Shown one piece after another: positions 5,208 to 59,697 of a DNA stretch of 64,000 nt. The notes beneath the pieces were generated by a model that ran no database searches, was not told where the DNA came from, and saw only the letters and a list, made by a program, of their open reading frames with translations. Position 1 is the stretch's first letter. Each line of letters begins with the position of its first letter. The DNA comes from Arenicellaceae bacterium. GTDB taxonomy: Bacteria; Pseudomonadota; Gammaproteobacteria; Arenicellales; Arenicellaceae. Location of the stretch: positions 1 to 64,000 of the forward strand of contig JAQWNC010000018.1 in the NCBI GenBank assembly GCA_029246505.1. The letters run 5' to 3'. The position numbers were made by a program, and so were the translations under genes.

Positions 5208-6629
5208 CTAAAAACTATCAGAAAAACTGCTTCCTGCGTAGTTTTCAAATCGTGTGTACTCACCTAAAAAGGTTAGCCGAGTGGTGCCGATGGGTCCATT
5301 ACGTTGCTTACCAACAATTATTTCGGCTGTTCCTTTAGCATCCGAATCCTCATTATAGACTTCATCTCGATAAATAAAGATGATCAGATCAGCATCTTGT
5401 TCAATTGCTCCTGATTCACGCAAATCAGACATTATAGGCCGCTTATTTGGGCGTTGTTCCAAACTTCGATTCAACTGCGATAGTACAATAATCGGCACTG
5501 ACAGTTCTTTAGCCAGCGATTTAAGCGCCCTGGTGATAGCAGATATCTCCGTCGCCCGATTATCTGAATTCCCGTCGCCACCCTGCATTAGCTGAAGGTA
5601 ATCAATCATAATGGCGCCTAAGCCATTCTCCTGCTCAGATGCCAATCGTCTTGCACGAGAGCGAAGCTCAAGCGCGTTTAACGCTGGGGTATCATCTATA
5701 AATATTGGTTTACCTGAAAGCATAGTCACCACACTAGTCAAGCGTGGCCAGTCTTCATTACTCAAATTGCCGCTACGCAGCTTTTGCGCACTAACACGAC
5801 TTAAAGAAGCCAACATCCGAGTTGCCAATTGATTACCCGGCATTTCCATACTAAATACAGCTACCGGTTTATTTTGATCAATTGCAATGTGCTCAACAAG
5901 ATTCATCGCGAACGACGTTTTGCCCATAGAAGGGCGGCCGGCGACAACCACCAAATCAGCCTCTTGCAGCCCGGAAGTCATTTCATCCAAATCAGTAAAA
6001 CCAGTTGGCACTCCAGTTATCGAATCGCCACTTTCATGTAAAGCCTCTATACGATTTATTGATTCTGCCAGTAAAGGCCCAATACTCTGAAAGCCTTCTG
6101 AACCTCTCGATTCCTGACGTGCAATTTCAAATATTGCCTGCTCGGCAAGGTCTAATACCGCATCGGTTTCCAAGCCTTCCGGATTGTAAGCACTGCGACT
6201 AATATCGTTAGCGGTTTCTATTAATCGCCGCAACACAGCCCGATCACGGACGATTCTCGCGTACGGTAAGGCATTACCTGTATTCGGAGTATTCTTGGCA
6301 AGACTGCCTAAATAAGCCAAATCATTGCCTACGTTATCGCTACTTCCTTCAGCGGAAGTTGACATAGCTTCCGACACCGTCAGAACGTCAATAGGTTCAG
6401 CTCGCTCATAAAGAACCAGGATAGTTTCGTAGATTTTACGATGGTCTGCACGATAAAAATCCCTGGCTTCCACCTCGCCACTAACTTCATCAATCAATCG
6501 ATTATCAAGTAGTAGTGCCCCTAGTAATGATTGTTCAGCCTCTACTAACTGCGGAGGCATACGTAAGCTGTCCTCGTGAGTCCGACCGGGTTGGCCGCTA
6601 GCAGAAGTAATCGGAACAGGATCTATCAC
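5208..6629 (-). CDS. dnaB: Replicative DNA helicase DnaB
   Basis: Hexameric 5'-3' helicase that unwinds the replication fork. The 473 residues hold an N-terminal DnaB domain (PPQLVEAEQSLLGALLLD), a linker, and a RecA-fold C-terminal domain with Walker A AGRPSMGKTS near 228-238, Walker B MIDYLQLM, and the late motif VLSQLNRSLEQRPNKRP. The chosen start is GTG at 6629, which gives a 24-residue lead before MPPQLVEAEQ; the inner ATG is an alternative. No intein is seen. It follows rplI but is separated from it by a strong terminator, so it probably has its own promoter. Confidence 0.96.
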   Translation of the reverse strand: MIDPVPITSASGQPGRTHEDSLRMPPQLVEAEQSLLGALLLDNRLIDEVSGEVEARDFYRADHRKIYETILVLYERAEPIDVLTVSEAMSTSAEGSSDNVGNDLAYLGSLAKNTPNTGNALPYARIVRDRAVLRRLIETANDISRSAYNPEGLETDAVLDLAEQAIFEIARQESRGSEGFQSIGPLLAESINRIEALHESGDSITGVPTGFTDLDEMTSGLQEADLVVVAGRPSMGKTSFAMNLVEHIAIDQNKPVAVFSMEMPGNQLATRMLASLSRVSAQKLRSGNLSNEDWPRLTSVVTMLSGKPIFIDDTPALNALELRSRARRLASEQENGLGAIMIDYLQLMQGGDGNSDNRATEISAITRALKSLAKELSVPIIVLSQLNRSLEQRPNKRPIMSDLRESGAIEQDADLIIFIYRDEVYNEDSDAKGTAEIIVGKQRNGPIGTTRLTFLGEYTRFENYAGSSFSDSF

Positions 6630-6772
6630 GGTACGTGTTTTCTCACTTTAAAATAGAAATCGCGTGGATCAATAAGCATACCTCGCAACCCAAAACTTCG
6701 CCATGGGAATCGCCACGGATTTGTACGAAATTATAACTTGCCAAAAAACTTAGCCCCATGATGGCACACATT

Positions 6773-6809
6773 AAAAAAGCGCCCTAGGATTAACCTAAAG
6801 CGCTTTTTT
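6773..6809 (-). terminator. Rho-independent terminator after rplI
   Basis: A-tract plus GCGC (6773-6782) pairs with GCGC plus T-tract (6800-6809). An inner stem TAGG/CCTA (6785-6788 with 6794-6797) extends the hairpin. On the minus strand it ends the rpsF-rpsR-rplI transcript 75 bp past the rplI stop. The A/T symmetry means it could also act in the other direction. Confidence 0.88.
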
Positions 6810-6883
6810 GTTCAGTTTAATAAATACTACTAATTTTAGTCGACGAACTACCTATTAAAATTAATTAGGCGCAAGTTTGAATT

Positions 6884-7333
6884 CTAGGCTTCTGCAACAA
6901 CCTCAACGACAATATTAAACTGAATTTCTGAATGTACAGATAGTTGCACTTTTAATTCTCCAACCTCTTTGATTGGACCATCTGGCATACGTACTTCGGA
7001 TTTTTCTAATTCAAAACCTGCGGCGGTCATCGCGTCTACAATTTCTTGCACACCAACCGAACCAAAGAGCTTACCTTCTTCACTTGCGCGCTCGGCAATT
7101 ACAACTTTCTGACCTTCCATAGCATCTCGACGTAATTCAGCAGCACCCATCTTGCCAGCCGCTGCAGCTTCAAGGTCTTTACGACGCGCTTCAAATGCTT
7201 CTATGTTTGGCTCAGTCGCAACAGTCGCTTTACCTTGTGGAACAAGGTAGTTACGCGCGTAACCAGGCTTCACGTTTACTAATTGCCCGAGTTCTCCCAG
7301 GTTAGCAATTCTTTCAAGCAGAATAACTTGCAT
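6884..7333 (-). CDS. rplI: 50S ribosomal protein bL9
   Basis: Two-domain protein of the large subunit near the L1 stalk. The 149 residues match the family length. The N-terminal signature MQVILLERIANLGELGQLV followed by VKPGYARNYL is intact, a long charged helix connects to the C-terminal domain (GKLFGSVGVQEI). Last gene of the S6-S18-L9 operon, nine bases after rpsR. Confidence 0.97.
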   Translation of the reverse strand: MQVILLERIANLGELGQLVNVKPGYARNYLVPQGKATVATEPNIEAFEARRKDLEAAAAGKMGAAELRRDAMEGQKVVIAERASEEGKLFGSVGVQEIVDAMTAAGFELEKSEVRMPDGPIKEVGELKVQLSVHSEIQFNIVVEVVAEA

Positions 7334-7342
7334 ACTCGCCCC

Positions 7343-7603
7343 CTAATGACTATCGGTGTAAGGCAATAACGCTAAGAAACGAGCCCGCTTAACAGCGGTC
7401 GTTAATTGACGTTGAAAACGTGCCTTGGTGCCGGAATTACGACTGGCAATAATCTTGCCAGTGTCACCTATACAACCTTTTAGGATCGCGATGTCTTTGT
7501 AATCAATGTAAGTGAAATTTTCAGCTGTAAATTTACAAAATCGTTTTTTACGGCTCTGACGATTTCCACCTCTACGTGGTTTCTGTTTCTGTCGCTGTGC
7601 CAT
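7343..7603 (-). CDS. rpsR: 30S ribosomal protein bS18
   Basis: Binds 16S rRNA as a heterodimer with bS6. The 86-residue product has the conserved core [20 protein letters not shown] and [19 protein letters not shown], with a somewhat longer Arg/Lys-rich N-terminus ([20 protein letters not shown]) than the roughly 75-residue E. coli protein. Its ATG overlaps the rpsF stop codon by one base (TAATG), implying translational coupling with its partner. Confidence 0.96.
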
Positions 7604-8307
7604 TATTCTTTCACCTCATCTTTTTCTTTAGCTGAAGCCTTTTTAGCTGGAGCCTTTTTAGCTGGAGCCTTTTTAGCTGGAGCCTTTTTAGCTGGAGCCT
7701 TTTTAGCTGGAGCCTTTTTAGCTGGAGCCTTTTTAGCTGGAGCCTTTTTAGCTGGAGCCTTTTTAGCTGGGGCCTTTTTAGCTGGGGCCTTTTTAGCTGG
7801 AGCTTCTTCGGCTGGAGCTTCTTCGGCTGGAGCTTCTTCGGCTGGAGCTTCTTCGGCTAGAGCGTCCTTAGTAGCAGCTGCATCGGCCTCTGCTTGAGCG
7901 GCAGCACGTACTTCCTGAGCTTTACGCATCCGGGTTTCTTCAGCGGCGCGTTCAACAGCGCGTTCATCTTCGCGCTTACGCTCTTCTTCCACTTCAACCA
8001 TCATCTTGGAAACTTCGGTAACGGCAGAATTCTGCTTAATAATCAGGTTTCGTATTACAGCATCGTTGAAGCGAAATAAACTTTCCAGCTCTTTTCGAGC
8101 TTCGTCGGTTGCTTCAATATTCAGAAGTAAATAGTGTGCTTTATGAATTTTGTTAATCGGATATGCCAACTGACGTCGACCCCAATCTTCCTGACGGTGC
8201 ACTGTACCGCCTGCATCAGTGACTACAGCAGCATAACGCTCCAACATACCACTGACTTGCTCGCTCTGATCCGGATGAATCAGCAGCACTATTTCATAGT
8301 GTCTCAA
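7603..8307 (-). CDS. rpsF: 30S ribosomal protein bS6 with long repetitive tail
   Basis: bS6 pairs with bS18 on the 30S platform. The start is TTG at 8307, giving [18 protein letters not shown] from the first residue; a TAAGGAGA Shine-Dalgarno sits four bases upstream. A longer frame to 8340 would add eleven residues without family support. The product is about 234 residues, against the usual 95-140. The first 95 or so form the normal fold, then comes an Ala/Glu/Arg helix, then a tail of four EEAPA units, ten KKAPA units and one KKASA, ending KEKDEVKE. The tail switches from acidic to strongly basic and resembles histone H1/AlgP-like Lys-Ala-Pro repeats. Whether it is kept on the ribosome or binds nucleic acid is unknown. 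Confidence 0.93.
7636..7860 (-). repeat. 15-bp tandem repeat array inside rpsF
   Basis: Fifteen contiguous 15-bp units with no spacers. Eleven are AGCCTTTTTAGCTGG on the plus strand (7636-7800), two of them with a single A-to-G change. Four are AGCTTCTTCGGCTGG (7801-7860), with one base different at the end. They encode [10 protein letters not shown] and EEAPA. Near-identity at synonymous positions points to recent expansion or ongoing slippage. Confidence 0.95.
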
Positions 8308-8331
8308 TTTTATCTCCTTACGGATTAAACA

Positions 8332-8358
8332 GTTCCCCAACGAAATTGTCGGTGAAAC
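8332..8358 (-). promoter_or_regulatory. Candidate S6:S18 autoregulatory mRNA motif in rpsF leader
   Basis: On the minus strand GTTTC (8358-8354) can pair with GGAAC (8336-8332). Inside it an asymmetric loop containing CCG (8352-8350) leads to a short CAA/TTG stem closed by TTTCG. A CCG in an internal loop between two stems just before the rpsF start is the known layout of the S6:S18-binding leader, which mimics the 16S rRNA site. It lies 25-51 bases upstream of the TTG start. The fold is drawn by eye and was not computed. Confidence 0.5.
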
Positions 8359-11582: not shown

Positions 11583-14500
11583 CTATTGTATTTCGGATTC
11601 TGCAGCATCGCTCCCCGCACTTAAAAGACGATAATAGTTAGCGACTGCATCCTTATACTCATTCGGGATTTCCTGAACTCGCTCATTACGCGTAAGGACT
11701 TGCTGCGCATCTAGCCCTTGCGCAATTTTTTGCTCCAATTGCTCGAGCAGCGCCAGTGTTCTACTGAGCTCTACAATCGAATTCTGATCACCTAAAACAA
11801 CATCATTCTGAAGCTGTCGAACTAAATTCTGAATTTCACCTACGTCGCCCTCAGATACACCTCTATCTCTCAAACCACCAATAACACCTCCGATGCCACT
11901 GGCTAGCTGGCCTAACTCACGGTTAGCGGCCTCTGCAGACTCTCTGTCAAAGGTGCGTGCGTCGGCCCAATATCCCCGAGTTGGTAAACCTTCTGTACGG
12001 CCCTGCTCCCCACCTCCACCCCACTGGGCCCCTGTAGCCTGCCCTGGCGCTGAGCCTGTCTCCTGTTGCCCAGAACTAGCTAGGCCGCCCTCACCTGGCG
12101 CCCCTGTCACCTGATCATCCAGGTTCGTTTGCTCTCGCATACCTGAATTACCCGAGCCTGTCTCAGCCTCGGACTGACTACCCTCTACCAATTCTCGGAT
12201 TTCATCGCGGCTAGCCTGAAGATCGGCTAATGTTTGATCAAACTGATCAAGCTCACGGTCAGCCTGATTATACATCTGGCGAGCTAAATCCAGCCGCTCT
12301 CTTAACTCACGCAAACTGCTAGTCACAATACTTTCGCTATTAGCGATATATAATGTAGCACCCTGATTCATATAAGCCGCGGCGCGATCTAACTGACTGG
12401 TTATTTCTGATTCTCTCAGTGCTTGATCTGCTGCCTCCAATGCTCTAGCGACACCAGGTGACTCACGTTTGACTTGGCTAGCCGCTCTCTGCATTTCATC
12501 GTTCAGAGTTTGTAAGCGACCCAGCATATCGCGCTTGATCGAACCGAACTCGGTATGTTCTTCATACGTGAAAGGATCGGAGATACGATCGGTTCCTGCC
12601 GGCATTTCAGCAACCGCCTTTCGAATGCCAGCCATCAATTCATCTTCAAGTGCACGTTGGTCGGTGTACAGCTCTGCTGCATCACGGGCCATATCATCAA
12701 AACCCTGAGCGATTGCTTCATTTTGGCCCTGCTCCATTCTTTCACCAGCGCCTTCCAACTGACGCTGTGCTTCAGCGGCTGCCCGTGCCAGGTCGGTCGT
12801 ATCGCCTCCTTGCATAGCCTTACTAACCCGGTCCATTGCATCAAGAGCGCTTTCAAGTCGACGATTTAACTCGTCCTGTTGAGGACTATTAGGCTGACCG
12901 TTATCGGAATCTGCTAATTCTGACTGACTGCCGGATTGACCGCTTTGCCCCGGCTGCCCGGTCTGGCCTGATTGTCCGGGTTGACCTTGCTGTCCCGCTT
13001 GACCTTGTTGTCCTGACTGGCCCTGCTGGCCATTTGATGGCTGCTGTGCCATATCAGTCAAACGTTCGCGCAATTCCTCGGTTTCCCTACGCAGTAATTC
13101 TTGTTGCCAACGTTGTTCCTCCATTGGAGTTGAGGTATTCCCCAGGTTCTCTGCCAACCGCTCTTGCCGACGTGCTAATTCAGCAAGTTCATCCATTACG
13201 TTTTCAGTTTCTTCGCTAGCTGCTTCCGGTGTTGCCCGCTCACCAGTTTCGTAACGGTTTTGCTCGAGATCCATTTCCAGCTCAAACATCTCAGCCAAAT
13301 CCGCACCTGCTTGTCCTCCCCCCATCCCGCCAGAACCCGGGTTAGACATGCTCACCTGAATATCATTAAATACAGCGTCTGCACGCAATAAATGCTGTAA
13401 CGCGGTTTGTTCAGGTTGAATCGCCTTCTCTAAATCAATTTCAGCCAGGCGCTCACTTGCAGGCGTCATCGCATCTATCGCCTTTTCCAAATGTTTGGTA
13501 TAGGTCTTGACCCGCGGATCAGAAGTTAATTGACGCGAAGTCGCGGTTTCAATCAAAGATTGCGCTTCTTCCGCCAAAGATGCCTGCAAGCCAGAAAGTA
13601 AAAGTGAGTTATCCGTTACCCGCCCATCAAATTCAGGGTTATTGGAAAAAGCCGAGTCTGCTTCAGTTTGTTCCCGAAGCAGATTCCAGGTAGAAACTAT
13701 AATCTCTCGTTGACGCTGGGAAATTTCCTGTTCGCTAGCTCCCTGTTGCCCACCCCCCATACCTCCACCCGCTTGTTGCGACTGGGAAAAACGTCGATCA
13801 AACGGTTGAACCTCGACAAAAAACATATCAGTTTGCGCTTGCTGAGACCGATCTTTAACTACAGCGTAATAAGAGATCAAATCACCAGCTACCAATCCAG
13901 TTACTATGCCCTTGGGCATGTCAGCTCCTGTCTCAGGTTCAAGTGCACTGTCGATATCAACGAAACCTTCTTCCAATGGCATAACAACAGGGGGCATAAC
14001 AGTAGTAGTCGATGCTGGAGACAATTGTTCGGTTGAATCACCCATATCCTCCAGATAAAACAAATACTCAACATTTATTTTATTTTGATCAGCAGGTAGG
14101 CTGACGGACTCCCACTCGCCACCATTAACAGAATACTTAAGCTCCATATTAACCAGACGAAAATCATCCTCGGCTACTATCTCGATAGTCACTTCTTCGA
14201 TGTTGCTTGCCCGCCAGTCACGCCCAGGCCGAACAAATTTAATTTCAGGCTTCTTGTCACCAGCCACAGTAATGAAGTAATCATCACTTAAACGTACTTG
14301 CTCGCCACCTAGCAAAGCAGCAATGTAATACTTTCCATCAGCTTCAATTTCAAAATCAGTAAATGCTGAGGAGGCTGCTATTAGTAGGTTTTGTGAGTTC
14401 CCGTTAAGAATCACCTCGCCACTAGGAATTGGAGAATCCAACACAACCTCCAAGTCGATGCGGGTACCTGGTATAGCTTGTATATCACCCCCCTGCTCTT

Positions 14501-47931: not shown

Positions 47932-48738
47932 ATGAGCGCAACCCTAATTATACTGCTTTCTGCTGCGTTATACTTGGTAGCTGGAATATTAGCGGCCCAA
48001 AATTCGAATTCGATGAGTAGCGGATTATCTTCCTCGCGGATTGCCTTATGCGTAGCATTTATACTCAATGCTTATGTAATTCGTCAGGCTTATACCACTG
48101 GCGAATTGAATTTTAGCATTTCGTCAGGCTTGTATTGGATTACTATAATTACCGCACTAGTGTATTTCTTATCTACCCTGGCCATGCCCATTCGGCGAGT
48201 CGGTAAATTCTTACTGCCAACCTGTGGAGCCTGTTTAGTGATCGGTCTAATATTGAATCCTGGAACAACCGGTTCAATACCTTCCGAGTACCGCTCAAAT
48301 GCCGCATTCACCAGCCACATTGTGGTTTCCTTATTCGCCTATGCTGTATTTGCGTTAGCATCTTTTCAGGCTCTGTTACTTACCACGCAAGAAAAAAAAT
48401 TAACTCAGGCCGATAAAGATTCTATTCTGGACAGGCTGCCGCCACTGCAAACTATGGAGATCATACTGTTTCGGTTATTAGTTGTTGGTTTCGTATTATT
48501 AAGCGCAACTTTGGTAAGTGGTGTAGTTTTTAGCCAATCTATCTTCGGACAACCCTTTAGCTTCACGCACCACATCGTGCTCACCTCAATGGCATGGATT
48601 GTTTTTGCGATATTACTATGGGGCCATTACCAACGGGGGTGGCGCGGCCGACAAGCAGCACGCTGGACACTTGCCGGATTTAGTCTGTTGGTATTAGGGT
48701 ACTTTGGAACTAAAGTGGTTCAAGCATTGATAGGCTGA
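47932..48738 (+). CDS. ypjD: CcsA/HemX-like inner-membrane protein YpjD
   Basis: A 268-residue protein of the cytochrome c assembly (CcsA/ResC/HemX) superfamily with eight predicted membrane helices. Conserved His residues are present in AFTSHIVVSLFAYAVFALAS (about 125) and FTHHIVLTSMAWIVFAI (about 210), as in heme-handling members. Location beside ffh matches E. coli ypjD, whose function is not established. Starts eight bases after the promoter -10 box. Confidence 0.85.
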   Translation: MSATLIILLSAALYLVAGILAAQNSNSMSSGLSSSRIALCVAFILNAYVIRQAYTTGELNFSISSGLYWITIITALVYFLSTLAMPIRRVGKFLLPTCGACLVIGLILNPGTTGSIPSEYRSNAAFTSHIVVSLFAYAVFALASFQALLLTTQEKKLTQADKDSILDRLPPLQTMEIILFRLLVVGFVLLSATLVSGVVFSQSIFGQPFSFTHHIVLTSMAWIVFAILLWGHYQRGWRGRQAARWTLAGFSLLVLGYFGTKVVQALIG

Positions 48739-52031: not shown

Positions 52032-52090
52032 GATGCCCTGAAACCCTTGATACAAAGGCATCTAAAAAAAGTTTGTACCTAGTTTGTATC
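52032..52090. repeat. Cluster of TTTGTATC-type repeats (putative integrase arm sites)
   Basis: TTTGTACC (52072-52079) and TTTGTATC (52083-52090) are direct repeats 11 bp apart, and GATACAAA (52049-52056) is an inverted copy. An outer GATGCC/GGCATC pair (52032-52037, 52057-52062) surrounds the inverted copy. Short repeats at helical spacing next to a putative att core look like tyrosine-integrase arm sites; the outer pair could also terminate the HNH transcript. Confidence 0.42.
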
Positions 52091-53024
52091 ATTTTTTAAT
52101 CAAACTTTTTAACTTTATCAAATCACTAGAATCTTCAAGTCTATGAATCATCCTATGACAATTAGCACATAAGACTGCGAAGTCTTGTTCTGTAATTTTC
52201 CTTGATTCCCCTTTTTTCAATTCTGAAATAGGTATCAAATGATGTGCCTCAATGTAGTCCTTGCCCAATTCACCATAAACTTTTTGAAAATCAAACTCGC
52301 ATCCTTGACAAATAAAACCCAGTTTCTTTTTAATTTTTTTAATTTGAGAACTGCTAGGTCTCTCAATAAGAGAATGGACCTTCTTTCTGTATGTTTCTTG
52401 TATGGATACTTCTTCATCTTTTTGCTCAGTTATAGAAAAATTATCACTGTCTCTTCCACCTCTAAAAAATAAAGTTTCATAAGCATCTAACATTTTGTGA
52501 AGATCTCTAATTAATAATTCTTCTGTTGGCAAATTGGTTGAGTCATATTCAATATGATAAACATGACCATTTCTATAATTCAGTCGACCATTTATTTCTA
52601 TCTCGGGAATTGAAGATGAAAATGATTCTGAAAATTCAGGAATTTTCATTCTCATAATTTCAGACTGTTTATCTAGATTTATATTGGAATGTTTTCCAAA
52701 TTCTTTTTCTGCTTCTTGAAAACTTTGTGCTAACCCGAAGATGATTTTATTTGATGTGTTTGGAATTAAATAAACTGGGTAATAACCCTGACTTGCTCTA
52801 TCAGTAATAGATAGATTGTAGATTGCTACCCAAGGAATATCTGCCCACTGACCTCTTCCTGCCGAACCTTCTACTTTGTAATCAGTTAAATGATCAGGTA
52901 GATAACCTTCTAAAATCTTTTTTCCCTCATTTCTAATAGATATTGCTGTTGGATGATCTCTGTAAATTTTAGGAACACCATAAGAGAGTTTTAAAGAGGT
53001 ATTTTCAAGAAAATCTCTTAACAT
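52089..53024 (-). CDS. McrB-N (DUF3578) / HNH restriction endonuclease
   Basis: Likely a modification-dependent (type IV-like) restriction enzyme. The 311 residues have an N-terminal MrcB-like DUF3578 domain (about 15-190; GRGQWADIPWVAIYNLSITD, YYPVYLIP) and a C-terminal HNH nuclease: CQGCEFDF (zinc Cys pair), EAHHLIPISEL (catalytic His), VLCANCHRMIH (second pair). No methyltransferase is adjacent, which fits type IV action. The gene is visibly more AT-rich than guaA and tadA. It begins 33 bp after the guaA stop on the same strand and may ride on the guaBA transcript; only a weak purine-rich ribosome site precedes the ATG. Confidence 0.85.
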   Translation of the reverse strand: MLRDFLENTSLKLSYGVPKIYRDHPTAISIRNEGKKILEGYLPDHLTDYKVEGSAGRGQWADIPWVAIYNLSITDRASQGYYPVYLIPNTSNKIIFGLAQSFQEAEKEFGKHSNINLDKQSEIMRMKIPEFSESFSSSIPEIEINGRLNYRNGHVYHIEYDSTNLPTEELLIRDLHKMLDAYETLFFRGGRDSDNFSITEQKDEEVSIQETYRKKVHSLIERPSSSQIKKIKKKLGFICQGCEFDFQKVYGELGKDYIEAHHLIPISELKKGESRKITEQDFAVLCANCHRMIHRLEDSSDLIKLKSLIKK

Positions 53025-56469: not shown

Positions 56470-57849
56470 ATGCAGTTAACACAAACCAAAAGTATTAGCA
56501 TTACGATTGCAAGTGCTGTCATATTGGCCGCACTCGCTTTTTCCTGGTTAATCTTTCCTTACTACTTTGATGGCAAGGGAATGTTGTTTGATACTGGCGA
56601 AGAAGTGCGTAGCGAAAGGTACATGCAACAAAACATGATCACCCAGTATCTGAGCCGGTATATATTCTTCCCGGGGGGCATCGAAGTTCAAGGATTATAT
56701 GCGTCGGATGAGTATTTCGAGTTTGCTGACCGTAGCGGAACTATAGAAGCTTATCGGCCTGACCTGTATATTATTTTCTTTATCACAGAAGATGTGCATA
56801 CCGGTTACTTGCCTCGTGGAATGCCCGAAGCACTGCTCGACATTGATGGTAAGAAATACCAAGCAGTCAGCGTCGAAGGTCCTGAATGGGTCGAACATCA
56901 CCGAAGCACCATCATTAAATTCCCAAAATTTACTGATCAAGGCGAGCCGGTCATTAAAGCTGACTCAACCAGCGCAGCACTGGAACTTACGCATTCGTGG
57001 GACCGAGATCGAATTGTAAATAATGAAATAGTACCCGTAATTGCGAGTTATGTATGGGAACTACCATTAAATGTTCCGGAGAGCATGAAATCCAGAGACA
57101 CTTTTACTAGTGCAATGGTCATGTCACTATCCGCCGGGCTTCTATCATCTGTTCTTACGCCATGCTTGATTCAACTTGTATTGCTATTTTTTGCAACCCT
57201 TGGCGGAATGAGCGCCAAAGAAGTCACCAGCTGTGGTGCGATAACTCCTGATGTGCGCAAAAAAGTACTGTTCGCAGCCAGCTGCTTTGTTGCCGGATAC
57301 GTCGCTTTATTTATAGTATTCGGTGCCTTGGTTGGCTACGCAGGTAAAGAAGCACAAATATTCTTTGCGGCATATACTCGACCAGTCGGGATTGGCTCGG
57401 GGGTCATCGTTATCACATTTGGTTTATGGCTAGCCATTCGATCGCGCGCACCGCTGATTTGTAAGCTCCCGGGCGCCAGTATTATTGAAAATGCCGAATC
57501 CAAAGGGGTACTTGGCACAGTAATCACAGCCATCGCATTTAGCCTGGGCTGCATGTCGTGTTTTGGTGGTGCTATAATTGGCACATTGTTTATATACGTA
57601 GGTGCGCTTGGAAGTGTATCTGCAGGTGCCACAGTAATGGGGATTTTCGCTGCAGGAGTAGCAATCCCTTTTCTACTATCGGCTATTTTCTTTACCCGCA
57701 TGCAATCACTATTTGGATTTGTCGCAAAACATACCCGCACCATCGGCACGTTAAGCGCGTTGGTGTTTATTGCTTTTGGCATCCTATTGATTACCGACAA
57801 ATTCCATGTCGTTAGTGACGCTATATACCCATACCTAGGGCTCAGCTAA
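56470..57849 (+). CDS. CcdA/DsbD-type thiol-electron transporter with periplasmic domain
   Basis: The 459 residues have one N-terminal helix (about 9-30), a soluble periplasmic region of about 180 residues (35-215), then six membrane helices of the CcdA/DsbD-beta type. The two redox Cys positions are visible in LSSVLTPCLIQLVLLFFATL near 235 and in LGCMSCFGGAIIG near 360; the latter holds two Cys. It would pass electrons from cytosolic thioredoxin to a periplasmic acceptor. The periplasmic domain is not the usual DsbD-alpha and I do not recognise it. First of a tight three-gene operon. Confidence 0.78.
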   Translation: MQLTQTKSISITIASAVILAALAFSWLIFPYYFDGKGMLFDTGEEVRSERYMQQNMITQYLSRYIFFPGGIEVQGLYASDEYFEFADRSGTIEAYRPDLYIIFFITEDVHTGYLPRGMPEALLDIDGKKYQAVSVEGPEWVEHHRSTIIKFPKFTDQGEPVIKADSTSAALELTHSWDRDRIVNNEIVPVIASYVWELPLNVPESMKSRDTFTSAMVMSLSAGLLSSVLTPCLIQLVLLFFATLGGMSAKEVTSCGAITPDVRKKVLFAASCFVAGYVALFIVFGALVGYAGKEAQIFFAAYTRPVGIGSGVIVITFGLWLAIRSRAPLICKLPGASIIENAESKGVLGTVITAIAFSLGCMSCFGGAIIGTLFIYVGALGSVSAGATVMGIFAAGVAIPFLLSAIFFTRMQSLFGFVAKHTRTIGTLSALVFIAFGILLITDKFHVVSDAIYPYLGLS

Positions 57850-57855
57850 AGCTTA

Positions 57856-59037
57856 ATGCGCATCAGAACATCGCTTAAGGCCATTATCTTGTTGGCCTGC
57901 ACAACTACTATGTCACCGAGCTGGGCATTTTTTGACCTCTTTAGTAGTAATTCAATAGCCGCCGGCAGTCGATACGCCTTCATTCCAAGTAAAACCGAGG
58001 CGCGCATAGTCGTCATTGATACCCAAAGTGACAAGCTAGCTGCTGAACTCGAACTGAATGACATAGCGAACCAATTGGTAATTTCAGATTCGCTTGATAT
58101 GTTGGTAGCAACGCATTCTGACAGCAGTATCCTTAGCCTGTTAAATCTGGAAACGCAGCAATCACTGCCTTCGTTAGATATTGGCATGATCGCAGACACC
58201 GGCTTACTACACCCGCATGATCAAATTATGGCGTTTGGTAATACGCAAGGGCAGGTTTCAGTATGGGATATGCAGGCTCCCAAAAAGATGTTTCAAGTTG
58301 ATGGCCTGAGTAACGCAGTTAATCTGACTTTTAGCGTCGACGGAGCACGTTTGTTTGTCGTAGAGCCAGAGCATCGGAGAATCTCTGTTATTGAGTTAAA
58401 TGCGCGTGCAATAATTGCTGAAATAGGAATCCCAAAACGAGCTCGGAATGATATTAATCAGAGCGAGCTAATAGAAGTAAAATTAGAGATTAGCTCTATA
58501 AGCCGCTCGGCAGATGGCCATACCGGGTTTTTATCAATCACATCCGAGAACACGGTAGTGGTGCTGGATTTACGAAAACTTGAGGTCAAACAAACCATTG
58601 CAGTTGATGCTGAACCCGTGCGCCCTTTCAGCACGGCCGACAACCGGTACGTACTTATTCCACACCGAGCAGCTGAATCTATTTACGTACTGGATGCCCT
58701 TAGCCTAAATATAAGAGGCAATATTAAAACTGGATTACCTGCACGAGAACTAAACACCGGTTGGCTGGATACCGTTGCTTTTGTGATGTCTGCCAATAGT
58801 GAACAGATTGCCGTAGTTGATTTGGAAAAACTTGCTCTGGAACGAACTATCACTTTATCTGGTAACCCTGATAGTGGCATGGTTACTTCAGACTCGAAGC
58901 GGCTTTATACGGCACTTATAGATACTAATAGAGTAGCAAGGATAGATGTCAGGAGCCGTGAAGTACTAGAAATTAGTAGCAATACCAATGGCCTATCAAA
59001 TATTGAGATTGCCGTTTCAAACAATATTTGCCACTAA
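57856..59037 (+). CDS. Periplasmic YVTN/WD40-like beta-propeller protein
   Basis: A 393-residue protein with signal peptide (MRIRTSLKAIILLACTTTMS then PSWA). The mature part is a series of blade-like repeats, each with a V-x-D or L-D pattern (IVVIDTQSDKLAAELEL, SVWDMQAPKKMFQV, ISVIELNARAIIAEIGI, VVVLDLRKLEVKQTI, IAVVDLEKLALERTI, VARIDVRSREVLEI), fitting a seven-bladed YVTN propeller. No catalytic residues or heme motif are seen. Lies six bases after the CcdA-like gene and three bases before the SCO gene. Possibly a docking or copper-binding partner. Confidence 0.75.
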   Translation: MRIRTSLKAIILLACTTTMSPSWAFFDLFSSNSIAAGSRYAFIPSKTEARIVVIDTQSDKLAAELELNDIANQLVISDSLDMLVATHSDSSILSLLNLETQQSLPSLDIGMIADTGLLHPHDQIMAFGNTQGQVSVWDMQAPKKMFQVDGLSNAVNLTFSVDGARLFVVEPEHRRISVIELNARAIIAEIGIPKRARNDINQSELIEVKLEISSISRSADGHTGFLSITSENTVVVLDLRKLEVKQTIAVDAEPVRPFSTADNRYVLIPHRAAESIYVLDALSLNIRGNIKTGLPARELNTGWLDTVAFVMSANSEQIAVVDLEKLALERTITLSGNPDSGMVTSDSKRLYTALIDTNRVARIDVRSREVLEISSNTNGLSNIEIAVSNNICH

Positions 59038-59040
59038 ATC

Positions 59041-59697
59041 ATGGTTAGAGTAGTCACTATACATTTTTCAACCGCAGGTTTACTAGTCTGGCTATCGCTT
59101 ATATCACTAAGCTGCCTAGCGTCAGATCAAACTACTATAGACGGCACGGTTTCGAGCCCGCAAGATATGAACGCACTCGATATTCCTCTAGTGTCTGAAA
59201 CCGGTTCAACTGTATCCATCAATAGTTTTAAGGCACCCATAAGGTTAGTCTTTTTTGGGTTCACATATTGCCCAGATATTTGTCCTTTAACATTGCACAA
59301 AGTCGCCAGTGCACTGCGGTTACTAAACCGGCCTGTTGGGGATGTTGACGTTATATTCATCTCCGTAGACCCCAAACGGGATACACCGGAAATCCTGGCT
59401 CGATATACCGATGCTTTCCACGAACAGATTGCTGGACTTTCAGATAACGTTAATCAACTACAGGTAATTACCCAACATTTTCGCACTACTTTTGGGTACA
59501 ACTTGGCCACCGCTACTGGAGACAAACCGCTACCAATCGATGAGTACAATGCACTACCTGTTGATTCAAGCTATATCCCTTACCACTCATCGCAGATTTA
59601 TGTGTTGAACCTGAACGGCGAGATTGTAGATTTAATAGGTTTAGGAAGTGATGCAGAGTTAATCGCTCAGACAATAGAGAATGCTATCAACCTATAA
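59041..59697 (+). CDS. SCO1/SenC-family copper/thiol protein
   Basis: A 218-residue exported thioredoxin-fold protein. A signal or anchor segment (about 6-26) is followed by FFGFTYCPDICPLTLHKVAS, with the Cys-x3-Cys copper pair near 79-83, then VDPKRDTPE and the third copper ligand His near 181 (YIPYHSSQIYVLN). SCO proteins load or reduce CuA of cytochrome oxidase; no oxidase genes are here. Its position after a CcdA-like electron donor suggests the pair works together. Confidence 0.88.
   Translation: MVRVVTIHFSTAGLLVWLSLISLSCLASDQTTIDGTVSSPQDMNALDIPLVSETGSTVSINSFKAPIRLVFFGFTYCPDICPLTLHKVASALRLLNRPVGDVDVIFISVDPKRDTPEILARYTDAFHEQIAGLSDNVNQLQVITQHFRTTFGYNLATATGDKPLPIDEYNALPVDSSYIPYHSSQIYVLNLNGEIVDLIGLGSDAELIAQTIENAINL

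Follow-up and report, generated by a model that had tools for sequence, protein, structure and literature searches.

Within the 64,000 nucleotides from an Arenicellaceae bacterium analyzed here (positions 1 to 64,000 of contig JAQWNC010000018.1, assembly GCA_029246505.1; hereafter the window), three adjacent genes encode a CcdA-like membrane protein, an exported β-propeller and an SCO1/SenC copper chaperone. This triad is a real, conserved and uncommon operon, best read as a variant copper-maturation module; whether it serves copper maturation in the periplasm with a reductant of its own is, in our judgment, evenly balanced. The most interesting point of the operon is the Cys-His C-terminus of the propeller, which the initial annotation of the window missed together with the conserved histidines in the periplasmic domain of the CcdA-like protein. 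To our knowledge, the delivery of copper to CuA, CuB and other periplasmic sites, and the identity of the reductant of the chaperones, are incompletely understood except in a few model bacteria. The features of the operon are as follows.

56470-57849, + strand: CcdA-like membrane protein, 459 residues (open reading frame (ORF) list, profile search, alignment)
56572-57084, + strand: periplasmic domain of the CcdA-like protein, approximately residues 35-205, predicted β-sandwich (alignment and low-confidence model)
57856-59037, + strand: exported YncE-like β-propeller, 393 residues, C-terminus ...SNNICH (ORF list, profile search, alignment)
59041-59697, + strand: SCO1/SenC copper chaperone, 218 residues (ORF list, profile search, alignment)

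The three genes are separated by 6 and then 3 bases, as the initial annotation had it, and its assignments broadly hold: DsbD_TM (PF02683) matches the first protein over residues 215-417, narrowly missing the cut-off (24.1 bits against 27.1), the second matches propeller families of Pfam only, and the third matches SCO1-SenC (PF02630) at 103 bits against a cut-off of 22.8. Its statement that no oxidase, nitrous-oxide reductase or cytochrome genes are near also stands, in that no oxidase, nitrous-oxide reductase or c-type cytochrome was seen among the listed window ORFs, which were read by eye and not all profile-scanned; it needs the qualification that the ORF at 47932-48738, 7.7 kb upstream of the triad and beside an ffh-like gene, encodes a protein of the cytochrome-c-assembly family (PF01578, 102.7 bits). 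A scan for promoters and terminators was uninformative (8 promoter-like sites against 8.7 expected; 6 terminator-like sites against 3.5 expected).

In a second species of the genus (G020) all three genes recur with their order preserved, at protein identities to the window of 84.5% for the CcdA-like protein, 72.0% for the propeller and 58.1% for SCO. The corresponding proportions of nonsynonymous differences (pN) are 0.092, 0.185 and 0.271, compared with 0.111 for ispH, 0.083 for cox1 and 0.070 for mdh in the same pair of genomes. Because synonymous sites of the triad are saturated between the two species (pS 0.77-0.83), no dN/dS ratio can be obtained, yet recurrence of all three ORFs in order, with saturated pS but low pN, argues that they are not chance frames. 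The right flank (ispH, lspA, ileS) is common to both genomes, with one extra gene in G020, whereas the left flank differs; the order of the triad is kept all the same, and the triad is therefore conserved as a block. The complete triad was found in this genus only, in both of its genomes (G000, which is the genome of the window, and G020). The G020 contig is a metagenome-assembled genome record, isolate SI074_bin90, which we take to be from Saanich Inlet, and it was the sole match in a scan of genome contigs with two 7-residue patterns, a scan that would miss more distant relatives; viral contigs yielded 43 pattern stretches, none of them a relative. Among the matches listed from the open-licence PMC literature, no paper on a set of SCO, CcdA and propeller genes was found.

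The Cys-His propeller and its neighborhoods

Outside what is presumably its signal peptide, the 393-residue window propeller has a single cysteine, C392. When this protein was aligned with six others, 15-70% identical to it, all seven were found to end in Cys-His: C392 and H393 are two of only six invariant columns, and the penultimate residue is the sole cysteine beyond residue 19 in each protein, CxxCH being absent from all seven. As a control, the same profile (E 0.01 or better) picked out seven more propeller-like ORFs at the loci retrieved, and these lack the Cys-His ending; two pairs among them are apparently G000 and G020 copies of one gene each. Before the plasmid loci were added, 6 of 536 distinct ORFs of at least 200 residues ended in Cys-His, namely five propellers and one antisense frame. 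The profile was built from propellers bearing Cys-His and so provides no independent test, but the plasmid matches, found by homology and not by their ending, are independent. Five plasmid records were matched by the window propeller and 14, 12 of them listed, by the propeller of G863, which, like G529, is a genome of a class other than that of the window, presumably Alphaproteobacteria. Among the matches listed, the alignment reaches the last query residue in 4 of 17 plasmid records, those of Photobacterium sp. DA100 and three Candidatus Manganitrophus plasmids; the Cys-His ending is present in the Photobacterium copy and in the two Manganitrophus copies examined, one of which is annotated as two ORFs. 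In our reading, the propeller is likely a copper carrier or scaffold.

The genes that accompany the propeller vary, and pairs from within the triad recur. In 4 of 4 genomes with a full-length CcdA-like gene (G000, G020, G529 and G863), a Cys-His propeller is the next gene downstream. At a second locus of G000 (L048), an SCO gene at 5849-6616 is overlapped by a paralogous Cys-His propeller gene at 6561-7766 (first start codons), approximately 5 kb from an SCO and PCuAC pair at 12320-13442; the propeller in the G020 counterpart of this SCO and propeller pair is cut by the contig end. Megaplasmid pDA100 of Photobacterium carries an unannotated run (L115:2080-8376) in the order porin, PCuAC, NapC/NirT-type cytochrome, cytochrome c with an Lcl domain, Cys-His propeller, SCO, thioredoxin-like protein (WCPPC) and cytochrome c, where the thioredoxin-like protein is nearest to the DsbE and TlpA models, under their cut-offs (43.5 vs 123 and 30.7 vs 230). 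This run resembles a respiratory branch equipped with a copper kit of its own, built on the same logic as the triad with a different reductant. The propeller thus meets SCO at three kinds of locus (the triad, the second locus of the genus and Photobacterium) and a thiol reductant at five loci (CcdA-like in four genomes, thioredoxin-like in Photobacterium), which makes the propeller the common part; the replacement of the CcdA-like protein by one of thioredoxin-like type argues, in turn, that the first gene of the triad supplies reducing power.

The remaining loci are less complete. In G529 the CcdA-like and propeller genes are followed by a gene for a 589-residue protein (L096:12385-14154) with one CxxCH near its N-terminus, a weak cytochrome-c match under the cut-off and a C-terminal part resembling a propeller, which matches no curated family over cut-off, and then by a PhnDCE-type ATP-binding cassette (ABC) transporter (L096:14723-17214). 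Proteins 27-40% identical to those of this transporter precede an SCO-PCuAC-SCO series on a Martelella plasmid (L119:1387-5621). The G863 locus runs from CcdA-like to propeller to a protein cut by the contig end, and at the Manganitrophus locus a porin precedes the Cys-His propeller.

The CcdA-like protein and the SCO chaperone

The CcdA-like protein consists of one N-terminal transmembrane (TM) helix, a cysteine-free periplasmic domain and a CcdA/DsbD_TM core, and it ends 17 residues past the last hydrophobic window. In a six-frame search its PF02683 score was 27.0 bits, or 27.5 bits with neighbors in frame, on either side of the 27.1 cut-off, while its homologues score 43.9 bits in G529 (over the cut-off) and 21.1 bits in G020 (under it). 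The best match to the single protein among PDB sequences is the CcdA 5vkv, which is also the sole PDB match of a four-row profile. In the alignment behind that profile, in which the other three sequences are 85, 51 and 39% identical to that of the window, core cysteines C232, C331, C361 and C364 are invariant. Hydrophobic windows coincide with C232 and with C361/C364, the conserved cysteines of the first and fourth core helices, and none of the four proteins has a cysteine ahead of the TM core (none before C232 in that of the window). The periplasmic domain has its own invariant residues, E107, H110, H143, H144 and R145.

Structure prediction of the periplasmic domain, which the initial annotation had suggested as a check, gave models of low confidence. 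AlphaFold models reached a mean predicted local distance difference test (pLDDT) score of 34.5 with two alignment rows and 47.8 with four; in the four-row model a β-sandwich is predicted over residues 65-197, with 10-residue blocks up to pLDDT 83. The best VIA-align rows for this low-confidence model were 3fbq (Z 7.8, root-mean-square deviation 3.7, 109 aligned), 3uc2 (7.2) and 5tuh (7.0), with immunoglobulin domains close behind at Z 6.5 and below and every row below Z 8, and the best Foldseek E-value was 0.12. For a model of this quality the fold comparison is uninformative as to function, and the absence of a family from the fold lists means little.

Within the order, 2 genomes out of 109 gave full-length matches to the CcdA-like protein, both from the genus of the window; 13 of the 109 match at all, the CcdA core alone being aligned in the remainder. 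In the class, a model of the N-terminal domain found only the window's own genome among 369, and a full-length model gave 2 full-length matches among 398 genomes of the phylum, G000 and G529. Around G529, where matches were restricted to E 1e-25 or better so that weaker relatives would not show, the protein is full-length in 2 of 315 genomes of the family, which adds G863, and 308 genomes of the class yielded no further example. With so few full-length matches in these overlapping, evenly drawn samples, we conclude that the gene is rare but scattered. The initial annotation had proposed the togetherness of the three genes as its test; this holds for pairs within the triad, which recur, but not for the complete triad, which is confined to one genus.

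Three sets of candidate relatives were rejected. Matches in 175 of the 398 phylum genomes were not taken as family members: among the phylum matches listed, all except the full-length ones in G000 and G529 begin no earlier than model position 167, and most of those that begin at 167-172 are interrupted by stop codons. None of the plasmid matches covered 80% of the query, and a match in G1298 (93.9 bits), limited to the core, belongs to an ordinary short CcdA with a soxY gene nearby.

In the SCO protein the copper-ligand set is complete (C77-x3-C81 and H182), and all three residues are invariant in seven aligned SCO sequences. The linker that leads to the ligand histidine exceeds in length those of the genome's other SCOs, a feature partly shared by the Photobacterium copy.

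Proposed mechanism, candidate client and competing readings

In the putative mechanism, the TM cysteines of the CcdA-like core would relay electrons supplied by cytoplasmic thioredoxin, as membership of the CcdA family suggests, while the conserved histidines of the thiol-free periplasmic domain may bind copper or dock partner proteins. These electrons would hold the CxxxC motif of SCO and the C-terminal propeller cysteine in the reduced state in which both could bind copper. SCO and the propeller may then exchange copper, the latter acting as a carrier or scaffold by way of its free Cys-His tail, and the metal would be delivered to a copper enzyme on the periplasmic side, a client that may differ in other bacteria. 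The excerpt of PMC9145763 provides precedent in that TlpA reduces SCO and CoxB and that CcdA might reduce SCO, and in the excerpt of PMC6689063 the periplasmic propeller AztD can hand metal to a partner.

The initial annotation left the client unnamed, and this reserve stands; the one COX1 of the genome (450 bits) is on another contig, C11. The best candidate in the genus is nonetheless the unusual caa3-type oxidase to which this COX1 belongs, with evidence both ways. In the family, 13 of 16 genomes have a COX1 of 539-556 bits. The C11 cluster (L029:7460-16873) encodes a CuA subunit with two cytochrome-c stretches, two COX3-family subunits and ctaB (by eye), along with a cupredoxin, a multicopper oxidase and a 196-residue protein without a Pfam family; the CuA ligand motif was likewise seen by eye. 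Of 26 genomes searched for Cox11/CtaG (PF04442), 21 have it, and it was found in neither G000 nor G020, though both have a caa3-type oxidase, nor in G010, G026 and G075. These observations fit a scenario in which the oxidase and its assembly factors changed together in the genus.

Two other clients were considered and set aside. The cupredoxin, the multicopper oxidase and the 196-residue protein recur together in some other gammaproteobacteria: the cupredoxin was matched in 11 of 368 other genomes of the class (one match covers 38 residues only), and at 10 cupredoxin loci from nine of those genomes a multicopper oxidase is nearby in 8 and the 196-residue protein in 6. As a constant client this module was rejected, there being no cupredoxin match in G529 or G863. 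A lactonase-type nitrous-oxide reductase was suspected from propeller similarity and from the genes that come third at the G529 and G863 loci. The window propeller scores 36.6 bits with the model of this clade III enzyme (L-NosZ, NF052460) against a cut-off of 700, and nothing in G000, G020, G529 or G152 reached that cut-off; the best match in G529 (140 bits) is part of an ordinary nitrous-oxide reductase with nos_propeller domains and an adjoining NosD, on another replicon.

Several findings weigh against a copper-maturation module with its own reductant. The proposal of periplasmic redox or copper maturation in the initial annotation is favored by the neighborhoods in which the propeller meets SCO and a reductant, but there is no thiol reductant beside the second SCO and propeller pair of the genus or beside the Manganitrophus propeller, next to which no SCO or CcdA-like gene is annotated either, and no SCO beside the G529 and G863 pairs in the stretches read, of which that of G863 is cut by the contig end. 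The DsbD_TM score of the window protein is below the curated cut-off, the periplasmic domain is poorly predicted, and copper binding, reduction and complex formation by the triad proteins are steps that we infer. As to the client, G152 has the same oxidase (72.6% for COX1) with the multicopper oxidase module and, by the numbering of its handle, is in the sample of which only the window's own genome matched the N-terminal domain; G529 and G863 lack a cupredoxin match; and the separate SCO and PCuAC pair of G000 could alone serve the oxidase. For these three reasons the oxidase stays a candidate client.

A broader proposal, which we advance tentatively and hold to be somewhat doubtful, is that Cys-His propellers form an undescribed family of periplasmic metallochaperones or scaffolds that extends over Pseudomonadota and Nitrospirota at the least. 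Together with SCO and a thiol reductant that can be swapped, either a new histidine-bearing CcdA-like or a DsbE/TlpA-like protein, they would provide a separate route by which a copper (or haem) center is loaded, replacing Cox11-dependent oxidase assembly in this genus.

If the operon instead served only to assemble the replaced caa3-type oxidase (CuA and/or CuB) and took the place of Cox11 in the genus, the atypical score of the single G000 COX1 and the distribution of Cox11 would be accounted for, and according to the excerpt of PMC9145763 both SCO and thiol reduction are required for CuA assembly. We consider this unlikely, given that G152 has the same oxidase, that the further genomes in which Cox11 was not found (G010, G026 and G075) are without a full-length CcdA-like gene, that an SCO-PCuAC pair already exists in the genome, and that G020 (88% complete) has three further, weaker COX1 matches. 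Less probable is a periplasmic thiol or peroxide defense in which the CcdA-like protein feeds SCO as a thioredoxin-like reductase or sensor and the propeller is structural or lactonase-like and metal-free. SCO, whose fold is that of thioredoxin, might serve as a thiol reductant (PMC9145763, excerpt), and the propeller matches generic propeller models only, but the SCO copper ligands are complete, PCuAC is present in the Photobacterium run, and a structural propeller would not be expected to keep its Cys-His C-terminus invariant.

Cys-His is also the second half of the haem-c motif, and the least probable alternative treats the tail as a single-cysteine haem-c site, or the propeller as a handler of apo-cytochrome c, in an operon for cytochrome-c or haem maturation whose CcdA-like protein keeps the cysteine reduced. 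The c-type cytochromes that flank the Photobacterium propeller, the possible cytochrome downstream in G529, the PF01578 gene upstream of the triad and a marginal Cytochrom_D1 match of the window propeller (PF02239, 26.4 bits against 25.5, over 105 residues only) speak for it, as does the action of CcdA in cytochrome-c synthesis in B. subtilis (PMC9145763, excerpt), but the seven propellers have neither CxxCH nor a second cysteine beyond residue 19, the recurrent partner SCO is a copper protein, and three unrelated propeller models outscore Cytochrom_D1 (27.2 to 47.6 bits, all under their own cut-offs).

Two further ORFs of the window lie apart from this subject. At 7603-8340, a ribosomal protein S6 ORF (PF01250) carries a long C-terminal APAKK-repeat tail that resembles the histone H1-like HC2 (39.8 bits, just under the cut-off), and an ORF at 52089-53024 that adjoins guaA combines MrcB-like N-terminal and HNH endonuclease domains, possibly as a lone restriction gene.

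Relation to known systems

If the copper-maturation reading is true, an SCO-adjacent Cys-His propeller with a histidine-bearing CcdA variant would make a compact, testable system, and the triad may explain oxidase maturation in bacteria where Cox11 or TlpA is missing from its usual position. With the CcdA/DsbD carriers (PF02683) the CcdA-like protein shares the TM-core cysteine motifs in a TPC helix and an LGCMxC helix; it differs from them by its added cysteine-free, histidine-bearing N-terminal periplasmic domain and by the invariant C331. DsbD has a thiol-bearing N-terminal periplasmic domain and a C-terminal thioredoxin domain, whereas the window protein has no C-terminal thioredoxin domain and no cysteine before residue 232. 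Since the N-terminal domain of DsbD is a thiol carrier and this protein is cysteine-free before its TM core, we regard the two as separate.

The propeller bears a general similarity to YncE (NF052280, 42.7 bits) and pyrroloquinoline quinone-associated (TIGR03866, 71 bits) propellers, far below the respective cut-offs of 400 and 287.3. In its proposed role of passing on metal in the periplasm it resembles the propeller zinc metallochaperone AztD as described in the excerpt of PMC6689063, but at 17.1 bits against a cut-off of 400 (NF038015) it is not an AztD, and it has the C-terminal Cys-His. The SCO protein has the complete CxxxC...H set of the SCO1/SenC/PrrC family (PF02630) and adjoins propeller and CcdA-like genes rather than oxidase or PCuAC genes. 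The closest parallel in logic, a thiol reductant paired with SCO, is the TlpA-SCO-PCuAC pathway of CuA assembly in Bradyrhizobium (PMC9145763, excerpt), from which the triad departs in having no TlpA gene, so that the CcdA-like protein may act directly, and in the addition of the propeller.

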